Origin: a bacterium
Lineage (GTDB): Bacteria; JAJVIF01; JAGGVT01
DNA: 28,907 nucleotides
Assembly (NCBI GenBank): GCA_021157815.1
Contig: JAGGVT010000039.1
Coordinates: forward strand, 1 to 28,907
Direction: 5' to 3'
Under the pieces are notes generated by a model. It was not told the origin of the DNA. It did not search any database and saw only the letters and a program-made list of their open reading frames with translations. How positions within the stretch are numbered: position 1 is the stretch's first letter; each line of letters opens with the position of its first letter. Positions 3,522 to 18,319 of this stretch are shown here, one piece after another. The position numbers and the translations under genes are program-made.

Positions 3522-5465
3522 TTAAAGTTCCTCGTCAGTATTTTTCTCATTTATCGGAGGAATTCCATCCCATACCATAAGGTTTTCAAAAATCACACGG
3601 AAAACCGGACCGCAACTTGCACCGCCCCAATGGGGTTTCGGTTCGTCGAGCAGAACAAGGATAGTATATTTCGGTTCAGGCAGGGGCCCAAATCCGACAA
3701 AGCAGGCATAATGGCGGTTTTTATAATATCCATGCGTTACACGGTCAGGCTTCTCAGCAGTTCCTGTTTTTCCAGCGATGCGATATCCCATGCCCTTCGC
3801 CTCTGTACCGGTTCCTTCATTCACAACTGATTCCAAAATATCCTGCATTATCGAAAGTGTCTCCTGAGACAAAATCCGCTCACGTTCAGGCTGGGGGAAG
3901 TAATACGTTTCCCGAACAGCCGATGACGCATCAAGCGCAATTCGCGGTTTGACATAACAGCCATCGTTTGCGAAAACATTCATCGCCGCGATAATCTGAA
4001 TCGGTGTTGCTGTAATTCCCTGTCCAAATGCGACTGTCGCTTCTCTTGCAAGCGACCAGCTCGGTGTGCCGATAATGACTTCTTCCAGTTTCTTGTTAAG
4101 GTTACCGTCGTATTCTTCTATCAATCCAAGAACCTTTTCGCCGAAATGGAAACGCTCCAATGATTCGACAAGGTTCGCCCGCCCCATTTTCATGCCTATC
4201 TGCGCCATCCCCACATTCGATGAATGAATGTTGATTTTATCAACACACCAAAACTCTGTTTTTTTCGGTGGATGTGTATCCGTTATCGGTTCGTCCTTCC
4301 CCTTGATTTTTATTCCTTTCGGATTGATTTCGAATCGCTCATCAGGACTAACTAGTTCATTTTCCAGCGCCCATGACGTCACAATCGGTTTAAGAACGCT
4401 TCCCGGTTCAAACGACAACTGAGTAACAAGATTGTGCATCGGATTAAGCCTGTATTCATCAGGGGGAAGAGTGTCAGGATGATCGGGTCCCAGGTTGATG
4501 TAATCATTGTAGTTTTCAGGATCGAAAGTTGGATAGTTTGCCAGGGCAAGAATCTCAGCGCTTGGCGCATCGAGTACAATAACGCACCCTCCCTTCGCGC
4601 CGGTTGATTTTACACGATCCTCAAGAGCCTTGTACGCCAGCGACTGAATTTCACTCGAAAGAGTCAGCCGTAAATCATAACCCGGCACAATACCCTTTCT
4701 GACAGTGTCAAAACCCGGAAGTTTTTCGCCGCGAGCGTTTTTCCATTCGATTACTCTTCCCTCACCACCCTTAAGCGTGTCGTCATATTTACGTTCAAGC
4801 CCTCTCCATGGAGTGAATTCGCCATGCACATCAGATGAATATCCGATAATGTGGGCGGACATTTCGCCTCCGGGATAACATCTTTTGTAGCTTTTACGCG
4901 CCTGGATTTCACCAAACTCCCTATCGAATTTCTTATAGAATTCACTTTTGTCCTTGAATCCGTCGAACAATCCCGGGTTGGAATTATAGAAATTATCCAG
5001 TTCCCTGGAGAAGTTCAAATAACGAAATTCACAAAACGCATCGAATTCCTGCTGTGTCATCCCCTCAACAAGTTTTACATTATATTTAGTATTGTTATAC
5101 GCCTCTACAATTTCATCTTCCGTCAGGTTAATCCTGGGCGCCATGAATTTCGCTATAATGCGATACATGTCCGGGGTATCCGGGCGTTTAACAGCAATGA
5201 CATCTCGAGACAATCTGCTGGCAGCGAAAGAGCGCCCTTTTCGGTCCAGGATATCTCCGCGTTTAGGGGTTTCCTTCCTGCTCCCAAAACCTTCATCAAC
5301 AGATCTCGCTTTCAATTCAGTATTTAAAACTGACGTGTTAAGCAGAGCAATTATCAGAAGAAGGAAGAGAGTGGAAATCCAAGCTTTCAGGCTTCCGACA
5401 CCTTTTTGGAAATACTGAGCACGGATAACTATCAACCATTTCCATATTTTTCTGATAACTATCAT
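3522..5465 (-). CDS. ftsI: Peptidoglycan D,D-transpeptidase FtsI (class B penicillin-binding protein)
   Basis: This is the septal peptidoglycan cross-linking enzyme, anchored in the inner membrane with the catalytic domain in the periplasm. The 647-residue protein has a short cytoplasmic N terminus, one membrane helix at about 29-45, a PBP dimerisation domain (RGDILDRKGR at about 69-78) and the transpeptidase domain. Its three active-site motifs are intact: SVLK at 356-359 (nucleophile Ser356), SSN at 415-417 and KTGT at 566-569. There is no PASTA domain. The ATG start has only a weak ribosome binding site, and the first codons repeat the segment TGATAGTTATC 30 bases apart (IVIR twice). It is separated from ftsL by about 600 bp of repeat-rich DNA, which is unusual for this gene pair. 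It could alternatively be named SpoVD/PBP2B-like; the context favours FtsI. Confidence 0.95.
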   Translation of the reverse strand: MIVIRKIWKWLIVIRAQYFQKGVGSLKAWISTLFLLLIIALLNTSVLNTELKARSVDEGFGSRKETPKRGDILDRKGRSFAASRLSRDVIAVKRPDTPDMYRIIAKFMAPRINLTEDEIVEAYNNTKYNVKLVEGMTQQEFDAFCEFRYLNFSRELDNFYNSNPGLFDGFKDKSEFYKKFDREFGEIQARKSYKRCYPGGEMSAHIIGYSSDVHGEFTPWRGLERKYDDTLKGGEGRVIEWKNARGEKLPGFDTVRKGIVPGYDLRLTLSSEIQSLAYKALEDRVKSTGAKGGCVIVLDAPSAEILALANYPTFDPENYNDYINLGPDHPDTLPPDEYRLNPMHNLVTQLSFEPGSVLKPIVTSWALENELVSPDERFEINPKGIKIKGKDEPITDTHPPKKTEFWCVDKINIHSSNVGMAQIGMKMGRANLVESLERFHFGEKVLGLIEEYDGNLNKKLEEVIIGTPSWSLAREATVAFGQGITATPIQIIAAMNVFANDGCYVKPRIALDASSAVRETYYFPQPERERILSQETLSIMQDILESVVNEGTGTEAKGMGYRIAGKTGTAEKPDRVTHGYYKNRHYACFVGFGPLPEPKYTILVLLDEPKPHWGGASCGPVFRVIFENLMVWDGIPPINEKNTDEEL

Positions 5466-6476: not shown

Positions 6477-7385
6477 CTAAAATAATTTTTCATAAACTCT
6501 GAATTGTGCCGACCTTATCAGAGGGTTCATTCGAATGGCTTCATCTGTTGGTTTGAGCGCTTTTCTTGTAATTACTTTAAGGCGTTTGTTTTCATCATCC
6601 GCGTATCGTTCATCTATAAGCCTCGCGAAACGCTTGTAAATCCTGGCTTCTCCTGAATGGTATGAAATAGTCAGAAGCCTTCCTGATTTCTTCAACGCCT
6701 CAAATCCCTTTTCCACCGCCACTCTCAGAGTGTTTAATTCGTCATTGACATGAATTCTAAGAGCGAGCATTACAAGAATCTCGGGAGGAACTCGTTTGCG
6801 CTTCGCTTTAAATGGGACCGCTTTTGAAACAATCGATGCTAGTTCGCCTGTCGTGGAAATTTCGTTCTCCTTTCGCACTTCAGCGATTCTAATTGCAATC
6901 CGTTTGGGAAAAGGAACTTCGATAATTTTCAAGATAGCAATTAATTCCTCCACAGGCGCGTTGTTTACAACCTGCCCGATTGTTTGTGCCTGCGTCTGGT
7001 CGAATCTGCCATCCAGCGGGCCTGTCAGCTTCACACTGAACCCGCGCTCCGGATTAGTAACATATTCGAGCCTCAGCCCGGGATCATAAATCGCGCATCC
7101 GATTTCGCTTAACCCCTCATCTAAAATCCGCTTGTCAAGGTGCATACAACTTTGCTTTTTTATATGAACTCTCTTACCAAATCTCTCAAGCCGTTTTGAT
7201 GCCGTATCGATTGCCTTTTGGTCGATGTCAAAATGGAAGTACTCGAGCTGCGGAAACTTTTCCAATAGCACCTCGCCATAAGTACCATCTCCGCCATATA
7301 GATCAAATACAATTCCATTTCCGTTAAAATTTCCGTATGTGACTATTTCATCAATAAATGCCGGATAATGATATTTCTCACTCAT
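6477..7385 (-). CDS. rsmH: Divergent 16S rRNA (cytosine-N4) methyltransferase RsmH
   Basis: RsmH (MraW) methylates N4 of C1402 in 16S rRNA using S-adenosylmethionine. From the ATG at 7385 (302 residues, overlapping the mraZ stop as ATGAGTGA) the family signatures appear in order: HYPAFIDEIV at the N terminus, a glycine-rich loop DLYGGDGTYGE (about 28-38), NPERGFS...GPLDGRFDQTQ, ISTTGELASIV, ALRIHVNDEL (about 208-217), ISYHSGEARI (about 240-249) and NPLIRSAQFRVYEK at the C terminus. Several normally strict segments differ: the usual DLGVSSPQLD is DPGLRLEYV, and FHSLEDR is YHSGEAR. It is a full-length but fast-evolving member. A longer frame upstream to 7442 lies within mraZ and is less likely. 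Confidence 0.9.
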   Translation of the reverse strand: MSEKYHYPAFIDEIVTYGNFNGNGIVFDLYGGDGTYGEVLLEKFPQLEYFHFDIDQKAIDTASKRLERFGKRVHIKKQSCMHLDKRILDEGLSEIGCAIYDPGLRLEYVTNPERGFSVKLTGPLDGRFDQTQAQTIGQVVNNAPVEELIAILKIIEVPFPKRIAIRIAEVRKENEISTTGELASIVSKAVPFKAKRKRVPPEILVMLALRIHVNDELNTLRVAVEKGFEALKKSGRLLTISYHSGEARIYKRFARLIDERYADDENKRLKVITRKALKPTDEAIRMNPLIRSAQFRVYEKLF

Positions 7386-7863
7386 TTTCATCATCCACGC
7401 TGAATCTATCGTAACGTTTTGGATATCTCTTCTTGAATTCACATTCCGCCCAAACCACTACTTGTTTATTCTTGAAATCAAGAATAATCTTGTTATCACC
7501 CTCCGGTAATTGCAGTCGGTTAACTTCGGATTTATACAATTGAATCTTGTTCGTTTTAACCACACTCGTTCTCAGATTGCCTTTTGGTTTCTCATCCTCA
7601 TCACCTGCCAGAGAAAGCAGGCTGCCTAAAACATCATTCACATCCGTTTTCTCTACCTGGTCTAACAAATCTTTTACTTTGTCCATGTTTAAAATAATGA
7701 GAGCCGGTATATCTTTCTCGAGAGGGAATGTAATTCCATATTCAACATCTGAATCACTGCCGTTGTCCTTTATCGCGGCAAGATACTTCGCTAAAGGAGA
7801 GATAACGAATATCCTGTTCCGGGAATCCAATTTGACTTTCTTTACGTCGAGCACTAAACTCAT
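7378..7863 (-). CDS. mraZ: Divergent MraZ-type transcriptional regulator
   Basis: 161 residues at the position where mraZ opens the dcw cluster. MraZ is a SpoVT/AbrB-fold DNA-binding protein that binds tandem repeats ahead of its own operon. The first half has LDSRNRIFVISPLAKYL (about 12-28), matching the LDxKGRIxIP...R motif with DxxxR kept. The second half has KTNKIQLYKSEV...LPEGDNKIILDFKNKQVVVW, equivalent to the second repeat, but its DxxxR is lost. An acidic insert of about 25 residues (around 70-95) separates the halves. Identification rests on this pattern, the size and the location. The ATG has no clear ribosome binding site. It overlaps rsmH by eight bases. Confidence 0.75.
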   Translation of the reverse strand: MSLVLDVKKVKLDSRNRIFVISPLAKYLAAIKDNGSDSDVEYGITFPLEKDIPALIILNMDKVKDLLDQVEKTDVNDVLGSLLSLAGDEDEKPKGNLRTSVVKTNKIQLYKSEVNRLQLPEGDNKIILDFKNKQVVVWAECEFKKRYPKRYDRFSVDDENE

Positions 7864-8105
7864 GTTGTTAATGTGATTCAGATTTCGTTATTTTTAAAAA
7901 CAATCGCGGGTGAAAGATTCCTGGATTTTTTGGCGACCGGGATTCTGTAATATGTAATTTCTTTTCTCACCCGCAAATTGTGTGTAAACAAAAATAAAGC
8001 TGCGAACGGTTAAACGTTATTTTGGATTATTATGACAACCGGGTTTGGTTATTATTTTCGCGTTGTCCCCGGTCACAGCTTGAAACATTAATTTAAGGCA
8101 CAGCA
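7864..8105. other. mraZ leader region without genes
   Basis: About 240 bases between the mraZ start and the phased repeats hold no ORF that I would support. They contain an inverted repeat GCGGGTGA / TCACCCGC (7906-7913 and 7967-7974) that would form a stem in a long mraZ leader RNA. Nothing else stands out. Confidence 0.4.
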
Positions 8106-8165
8106 GTAACATTTTGAAACATATATTTATCTGCTGTAACACCATTTAACATTTTGTAACACCGG
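8106..8165. promoter_or_regulatory. 10-bp phased repeat array, candidate MraZ operator
   Basis: Five copies of a (G/T)(T/A)AACA unit start at 8106, 8116, 8136, 8146 and 8156, so all are exactly 10 or 20 bases apart; the slot at 8126 is degenerate. Read towards mraZ the unit is TGTTAC or TGTTTC. MraZ proteins are known to bind short direct repeats with a 10-bp period upstream of mraZ. The period and location fit; the core differs from the E. coli TGGG core. The array starts just downstream of a predicted -10 box for mraZ (8168-8173). Confidence 0.6.
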
Positions 8166-8167
8166 CT

Positions 8168-8196
8168 ATAATAATTGTATTCACTTCGCTGTTCAA
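8168..8196 (-). promoter_or_regulatory. Predicted promoter of the mraZ operon
   Basis: On the minus strand TTGAAC (8191-8196) and TATTAT (8168-8173) are separated by 17 bases. Transcription would begin near 8161, at the edge of the repeat array, giving a leader of about 300 bases before mraZ. The same DNA reads TATAAT on the plus strand (8167-8172), so a rightward promoter is also conceivable, but no well-spaced -35 is seen for it. Confidence 0.5.
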
Positions 8197-8673: not shown

Positions 8674-9519
8674 ATGGCAAAGCAGGACAAGTATCTTAAT
8701 CAAAAAATCAATAATTATGGCGTGAAGTATCGTCTTGGACAGGGCGCATTCGCAACGATATACGCCGCGGAGGATTTATCAAAATCCACATCGCAGGAAA
8801 AATGCATGGTCGCCTTGAAAATTCCCTTGAACAAGGATGAGAACTACAAAAAGAACATGGCGGAAGCGGAACTTCTTCTCGGGCTTAATCATCCGAACAT
8901 CGCTAGATGCTATTCAATCGAGATGGACAGGCGGGAGAACATTTTTTTCTTCGTAATGGAAATCATCAAAGGCAAGGATCTCAATGAGATTATCGACCTT
9001 GCCGGCGGGCCGATGCCGTCAAAACAGGTCGAGCATATTGGACGCCAAATTCTTGACGCATGCAAATACATGGGGAAGAACTACATTGTCCATCGCGACA
9101 TAAAACCGGCGAATATTGTTATCCTCGATGAACCGTACGGCTGGGCGAAGATAATGGATTTCGGCCTTGCAATCAACACTCTTGACTGGAATGGCAAGGG
9201 CGCGCAGGCGGGAAGCCTTTTGTTTATGGCTCCTGAACAATGCAAGGGCAAGCCTGAACCGGCTAGTGATATCTGGGGAATCGGAGTAATCATGTATAAA
9301 ATGCTGACCGGCAAATCCCCATTCCTGGCAGCAAGTGAACCTGAAATTCGCCAGAGAATCCTTGAAGATGAGCCGACTCCAATTCTTGAAATCATCCCGA
9401 ACGCCGATCCAAAACTGGTTGAATTAATCGACAAGTGCCTCATTAAAGATCCGAAGGAACGCTACAAATTCGAGGATATGGAAGATGGATTCAGGCCATA
9501 CGGTGATGGCGACACATAA
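8674..9519 (+). CDS. Soluble Hanks-type Ser/Thr protein kinase
   Basis: The 281-residue protein is a bare eukaryotic-type kinase domain. Visible motifs are the glycine loop GQGAFATIY (22-30), the ATP-anchoring Lys49 in VALK, the catalytic loop HRDIKPAN (140-147), DFG (162-164), APE (186-188) and DIWGIGVIMYKMLTGKSPF of subdomain IX. All catalytic residues are present. There is no membrane helix, PASTA or other sensor domain, so it should act in the cytoplasm on unknown substrates. It starts with ATG after AGGTG. It is divergent from the dcw cluster across an 810-bp gap, so regulation of cell-wall genes or FtsL/MurJ by phosphorylation is possible but not shown. It is apparently monocistronic. 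Confidence 0.93.
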   Translation: MAKQDKYLNQKINNYGVKYRLGQGAFATIYAAEDLSKSTSQEKCMVALKIPLNKDENYKKNMAEAELLLGLNHPNIARCYSIEMDRRENIFFFVMEIIKGKDLNEIIDLAGGPMPSKQVEHIGRQILDACKYMGKNYIVHRDIKPANIVILDEPYGWAKIMDFGLAINTLDWNGKGAQAGSLLFMAPEQCKGKPEPASDIWGIGVIMYKMLTGKSPFLAASEPEIRQRILEDEPTPILEIIPNADPKLVELIDKCLIKDPKERYKFEDMEDGFRPYGDGDT

Positions 9520-9931: not shown

Positions 9932-10426
9932 CTAAGATTGTTCATCCGTTGTATCTGCAGATACACTCTCTTCACTTTCAGCTGGTTCCGTTTTTTCATC
10001 CGGTACCTTTTCTGTCGGTTCCTTTTCCGCCTTGTTGATAGCAGCAGCCATCACATCAGCATCTACAGATTCCGTGGATTCATCAAGCTCCGGCCGTTCA
10101 GGCTTGACAACCTTCGGTTCTTCATGAATGGTTTTTTCAGATTTCAAAACCGCGGGTTGCCCAATGTTAAGCGTAATATTGAGGCGCTTCATAAGGCGGC
10201 TTTTTCGCCTTGACGCATTATTTTTTTTAATAATGCCTTTGGTAACCATCATGTCGAGTACACGACACGCTGCGTCTACACGCTCTGACGCATCAGATGT
10301 ATCCTTATCGAGCGCGACTCTCGCAGTCTTCACATAAGTGCGCATTTTACTTCGAAGAGTTCGATTACGAATCGTGCGCTTTTTAATTCGCTTTAGGTCC
10401 TTAATACTTGACTTGGTATGTGCCAT
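9932..10426 (-). CDS. rpsT: 30S ribosomal protein S20 with long acidic C-terminal extension
   Basis: Residues 1-87 are a complete S20: MAHTKSSIKDLKRIKKRTIRNR at the start, basic helices binding the 16S rRNA 5' domain, and NNASRRKSRLMKRLN at the end. S20 is normally under 90 residues; here another 77 or so follow, very rich in Glu, Asp, Pro, Ser and Thr (for example EPAESEESVSADTTDEQS), probably disordered. The frame is continuous, with no sign of a frameshift. A consensus-like promoter lies upstream (10475-10503) and a terminator downstream, so the gene is monocistronic, divergent from murJ. The tail's role is unknown. Confidence 0.93.
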   Translation of the reverse strand: MAHTKSSIKDLKRIKKRTIRNRTLRSKMRTYVKTARVALDKDTSDASERVDAACRVLDMMVTKGIIKKNNASRRKSRLMKRLNITLNIGQPAVLKSEKTIHEEPKVVKPERPELDESTESVDADVMAAAINKAEKEPTEKVPDEKTEPAESEESVSADTTDEQS

Positions 10427-17943: not shown

Positions 17944-18319
17944 ATGACATATTCAACCAAACAATATGCGCTCACTGAAGACCAGCGCACCGAACTCCAT
18001 CGAAGAGTCCAAAGTAGCAAGACATCCAAGCGAGATAGTCTTAGAGCCAATATAATTCTTCTGCGAGAAGGCGGAATGAAACAAAGAGATGTCGCAAAGA
18101 ATCTGGGCATCAGCCATACAAGTGTATCAAAGTGGACCATGCGTTTTGAAAAGCAGGGCATCAAGGGGCTTAAAGATGCCCTGGGGCGAGGTCGCAAACC
18201 CACCATAGATAGCAGCAAACTCCGTAAAGTCATCGACCAGGTGGAGCACTCGAACCATGGCAAAGGAGGCAGGTGTCTCCCAAAAGTATGTATTATTTAG
18301 ATACATAACTTTTTCTTGA
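17944..18319 (+). pseudogene. IS630-type transposase remnant, frameshifted and truncated
   Basis: An ATG at 17944 opens 118 codons that match the N-terminal helix-turn-helix region of IS630/Tc1-type transposases: a first DNA-binding helix-turn-helix (QRDVAKNLGISHTSVSKWTMRF, about 50-70) and the GRGRKPTID linker. After about 18241 the correct protein continues in the +1 frame: from 18242 it reads WSTRTMAKEAGVSQK, the usual next segment of this family, and then ends at a TGA at 18317. Thus a small deletion shifted the frame, and the DDE catalytic domain is absent. No function is expected. It sits between tatD and cheA. Confidence 0.75.

Follow-up and report, generated by a model that had tools for sequence, protein, structure and literature searches.

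Phased TGTTAC repeats ahead of a candidate mraZ gene: a probable variant MraZ operator at the head of a bacterial dcw cluster

An array of short direct repeats with a 10-bp period precedes the dcw (division and cell wall) cluster in a bacterial contig of 28,907 nt (JAGGVT010000039.1 of assembly GCA_021157815.1, which in its full length is called the window here). The array is probably the MraZ operator of this cluster, in a variant form where (R)TGTTAC cores replace the GTGG cores, and this reading is the best supported of those considered. It draws on the array itself and its statistical significance, on its uniqueness in the genome, on the agreement of its period, strand and position with those of other mraZ leaders, and on the dcw gene order.

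Five of the six slots of a strict 10-bp grid are filled by repeat units and one slot is degenerate (Table 1). This arrangement had been reported in a first-pass annotation of the same DNA, and it is present in the sequence exactly as claimed. On the forward strand the units read GTAACA at 8106, GAAACA at 8116, GTAACA at 8136, TTAACA at 8146 and GTAACA at 8156, while the degenerate slot at 8126 reads TTTATC. On the mraZ strand, from the -10 element onwards, the sequence is TATTATAGCCG GTGTTACAAA ATGTTAAATG GTGTTACAGC (AGATAAATAT) ATGTTTCAAA ATGTTACTGC, with more than three direct repeats of 10-bp period upstream of mraZ. TGTTA is exact in four of the five units. When checked for a GTG(G) core, two units have GTGT and three have ATGT, and two units read AAAATGT with an A-rich flank. 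An additional off-grid pair, GTCACA at 8072 and GAAACA at 8082 on the forward strand, was absent from the first-pass annotation; this pair belongs to a 24-nt imperfect copy of 8106-8129 (repeat family D1).

Table 1. Coordinates of the array and of the features around it in the window
Feature	Position	Strand	Remarks
Array, proposed MraZ boxes	8106..8161	-	TGTTAC 8161-8156, TGTTAA 8151-8146, TGTTAC 8141-8136, degenerate GATAAA 8131-8126, TGTTTC 8121-8116, TGTTAC 8111-8106
Off-grid pair TGTTTC 8087-8082 and TGTGAC 8077-8072	8072..8087	-	possible extra half-sites
Promoter-like site TTGAAC-N17-TATTAT towards mraZ	8168..8196	-	9/12 matches, predicted
Promoter-like site TTAACA-N18-AATAAT towards the kinase gene	8146..8175	+	10/12 matches, overlaps the array, predicted
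Remainder of the putative mraZ leader	7864..8105	-	
mraZ-position ORF, 161 aa, putative highly divergent MraZ	7378..7863	-	
rsmH (mraW), 16S rRNA methyltransferase, next dcw gene	6477..7442	-	
Ser/Thr protein kinase gene, divergent neighbour of mraZ	8674..9519	+	

The grid score used here is the slot consensus over six 10-bp slots, where the worst slot is dropped. The array obtains a score of 22. Dinucleotide shuffling of the intergenic region (811 bp) gave at best 21 over 2000 randomisations and shuffling of the whole window at best 19 over 200, and the second-best place in the window at a 10-bp period scores 17. The periodicity is confined to the core columns, and in an autocorrelation of whole 10-mers at period 10 the array is not outstanding. 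Genome-wide motif counts were obtained by pattern searches in the genome, which is 90.9% complete. The exact triples of WAACA and of RTGTTA at 10-bp spacing each have a single occurrence in the 3.2-Mb genome, and the counts of looser core patterns are near background. Matches to the pair pattern elsewhere in the genome are located within ORFs or at a start codon.

A set of 95 upstream regions of mraZ from other lineages was used for comparison. Two or more GTGG in 10-bp phase were found in 79 of the 95 leaders on the mraZ strand versus 6 on the opposite strand, and three or more in 52 versus 0. A promoter-like site is found near the boxes in 60 of the 79 leaders, and in 49 of these 60 the first box is placed 0-15 nt after the -10 element, with a peak at 5-10 nt which random positions in the surveyed leaders do not show. 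In the window the first unit is placed 5 nt after the predicted -10 of the mraZ promoter, and the first-pass statement that the array starts just downstream of this promoter agrees with the peak of the survey. The TTGAAC-N17-TATTAT sequence that it had named as the promoter pointing at mraZ is also there, as a predicted site with 9/12 matches.

As the same annotation had pointed out, the core towards mraZ is not the TGGG of E. coli. It is (R)TGTTAC and not the GTGG typical of the surveyed leaders; phased TGTTA is absent from all 95 of them. A weight matrix trained on GTGG boxes has its best three-slot match of the intergenic region in the array, on the mraZ strand. This score is not significant, being equalled in 128 of 500 shuffles, so that from its letters alone the array cannot be recognised as an MraZ box.

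GTGT instead of GTGG cores in phased mraZ boxes were observed in two families outside the phylum of the window, with GTGTA boxes in L046 and L108, and GTGT followed by GTGGG in L101 and L106. These leaders are like the array in having GTGT cores with a 10-bp period near the mraZ -10, and they differ from it in that the boxes are GTGTA or mixtures of GTGTT and GTGGG, not TGTTAC, and in that the MraZ protein is ordinary. Another leader of the survey, from an alphaproteobacterial MAG (L010, about 4430-4470, upstream of mraZ), has four CCCAT units at 10-bp spacing, i.e. ATGGG boxes whose orientation is the reverse of that seen in nearly every other mraZ leader.

In Burkholderia, as in E. coli, the MraZ repeats are found downstream of the -10 and overlap the start, and the core shared by distant bacteria is a repeated GTG (PMC7761207). 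Like the boxes of E. coli, Burkholderia cenocepacia and other bacteria (GTGG/TGGG), the array consists of 10-bp direct repeats on the mraZ strand, which closely follow the -10 and overlap the expected transcription start. Unlike these, it has an (R)TGTTAC core and six slots of which one is degenerate, it is located 243 nt from the mraZ start, and the MraZ is unrecognisable by family models. For Mollicutes, PMC8475190 quotes the MraZ box as AAAGTG[T/G] (Fisunov 2016) and mentions that a single MraZ-box site was reported in the genome of M. genitalium. Measured against this box, the array also has TG followed by T or G, an A-rich flank and a single genomic site, but the G before TG is an A in two or three units and TTAC follows. 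Most likely, the array is an MraZ operator with the usual architecture and an unusual core, placed beside an MraZ gene that is missed by standard models.

The main rival reading, which we consider unlikely, is that the array is the site of a winged-helix response regulator of the OmpR/PhoB family which controls the divergent kinase gene or the dcw operon, or the two together. Its dimers would sit on tandem half-sites separated by one helix turn, like those at E. coli ompF and ompC. Sites of OmpR, RstA, CenR and WalR are likewise direct hexamers about one helix turn apart, and the letters GTTACA/TGTWAH fit, as the array agrees both with the OmpR motif GTTACAnnnnGTTACA (PMC7315122) and with the WalR half-site TGTWAH, although WalR sites have a spacing of 11 bp and not the 10 bp of the array (PMC4168254). 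CenR, a regulator of the OmpR family, recognises direct repeats with 10-bp spacing, and in R. sphaeroides it gave a ChIP signal ahead of mraZ, but the CenR motif is absent from the mraZ promoter there (PMC9275681). A TATAAT after the array on the forward strand would also suit such a regulator. The position and the period of the array are, however, those of MraZ boxes, and an array which is unique in the genome, where the pair matches elsewhere fall in ORFs or at a start codon, gives no sign of a regulon. The genome yielded a single PF00486 protein, at whose operon no such array is seen. By pattern and by eye no further sites of the response-regulator type were seen in this 90.9% complete genome, OmpR sites being degenerate.

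The dcw cluster on the reverse strand of the window comprises the mraZ-position ORF, rsmH, an ftsL-like ORF, ftsI and murE, where the names ftsL and murE are given solely by position and translation. The mraZ-position ORF is the first dcw gene, directly before rsmH. The comparison covered four genomes of this phylum, the nearest being in other families, and one of them (G002) has the same arrangement. A kinase gene diverging from mraZ-rsmH is also common to the window and G002, and the two kinases are 51% identical. The MraZ of G002, with 24.0 bits, barely exceeds the Pfam threshold of 23, and no clear array was found in G002. In G001 and G003 no protein scores above the cut-off of the MraZ family and the mraZ position is without a gene, and these two genomes are therefore unusable for judging the conservation of the array. 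Among the 40 genomes searched, the mraZ-position protein had no match in another genome.

Three further observations concern other genes. The ORF at 9932-10426 (-) begins like ribosomal protein S20 and has a length of 164 aa with a long acidic C-terminal extension, and the short ORF at 17944-18300 (+) resembles the N-terminal helix-turn-helix part of an IS630-type transposase and is possibly a remnant, in both cases judged by translation only. Short tandem repeats (about CCAATTCATGATAGGATTTGAAGAGG) are found at L016:1876-2000 (G000:C170), directly 3' of an ORF resembling the gene for aminodeoxychorismate/anthranilate synthase component I.

The promoter-like site on the forward strand at 8146-8175, which was absent from the first-pass annotation, overlaps the array, and its strand has a TATAAT directly after the array. 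If the array activated this promoter, its target would be the kinase gene, or a small RNA preceding that gene, and not mraZ. Such a reading would fit that TATAAT and the conservation of the kinase as divergent neighbour of mraZ in G002. We regard it as very unlikely, as the kinase gene begins 500 bp away and the kinase orthologue in G001 (L019), which is located away from mraZ, has no such array in the approximately 290 bp upstream.

We infer that the ORF at 7378-7863 encodes MraZ, from the gene order, the conserved residues and a structural model guided by MraZ sequences. Pfam PF02381 has no match to this ORF at E<=1, BLASTP against the G002 copy finds nothing, and a profile comparison with MraZ is not significant. 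Using an HMM built from the survey, the ORF comes first among the ORFs of the window with 4 bits, a score that is not significant (decoy 2.8). An alignment of 37 proteins has four invariant columns, and the ORF keeps all of them (D13, R17, R116 and W138). The motifs are LDSRNR in the first half and SEVNR in the second half, together with a VVVW strand. Seen as DxxxR halves, the first keeps both D13 and R17, whereas the second keeps R116 without the D; W138 is kept, and there is no helix following the second motif. The first-pass description of the encoded MraZ as divergent is borne out by these results, as Pfam does not detect it at this threshold, yet the residues invariant in MraZ are retained.

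A first AlphaFold run with five alignment rows was poor (pLDDT 40), and the run with the 37-protein alignment gave a pLDDT of 71.5. By Foldseek and VIA-align the model groups with the MraZ of M. genitalium and M. pneumoniae. The model built with the MraZ alignment matches 9qlg_B with a Z of 10.6 and an rmsd of 3.0 A over 117 residues, the next unrelated fold having 5.1, and since the MraZ alignment guides the model, this match is support and not proof.

The missing helix and the failure in Pfam, together with the two relatives that have neither an MraZ over the cut-off nor any gene in its place, are what one might expect if MraZ were being lost in the phylum and the array were the decaying remnant of an MraZ operator that has lost its working regulator. 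We find this very improbable: decay would preserve neither TGTTA in four of five units nor the exact grid, and the reading frame is uninterrupted across 161 codons.

The first-pass annotation had proposed an MraZ operator and, in addition, co-evolution of the protein with its site. The operator part fits the survey of 95 leaders in period, in the position after the -10, in strand and in the near-GTG core; the co-evolution part is unsupported, as the box change and the change of the N-terminal motif occur separately in the survey. In the families with GTGT boxes the N-terminal MraZ motif is of the ordinary DxKGR type (LDEKGR and LDSKGR), and L055, L056, L060 and L068 have a KNR motif, which is close to the RNR of the window, yet ordinary GTGG boxes. 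Thus, neither change predicts the other. It is conceivable, though somewhat doubtful, that an MraZ diverged past family detection reads the changed (R)TGTTAC box, regulator and operator of a gene cluster that ranks among the most conserved in bacteria having changed together in this lineage.

If the array is the MraZ operator, transcription of mraZ-rsmH-ftsL-ftsI-murE would begin some 7 nt beyond the TATTAT at 8168, at the first box or close to it. The divergent MraZ would form a ring-shaped oligomer and bind several boxes from the same face of the helix, and this binding would overlap the start site and repress its own operon. Beyond the identity of the ORF, we infer the binding of MraZ at the array, the use of the promoter and the outcome of repression; the precedents of E. 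coli, Burkholderia and Mycoplasma suggest binding around the start and autorepression.

A point against the MraZ reading is the distance of 243 nt between the array and the mraZ start, which is longer than in any surveyed leader with three phased GTG except one. The putative mraZ leader RNA, 7864-8161 (-), is predicted to fold better than shuffles (z -2.74, 2/200), and this fold may leave room for further control at the RNA level. An Rfam search of the window gave no RNA family. Distant arms GCGGGTGA and TTTCACCCGC were noted in the putative leader RNA near 7905-7975.

MraZ boxes are nearly uniform across bacteria, as seen from the phased GTGG in 79 of the 95 leaders. If the proposed reading is true, a TGTTAC operator together with an MraZ that evades the family models would provide a natural test of DNA recognition by the MraZ ring, and MraZ control would persist in genomes where annotation reports no MraZ.
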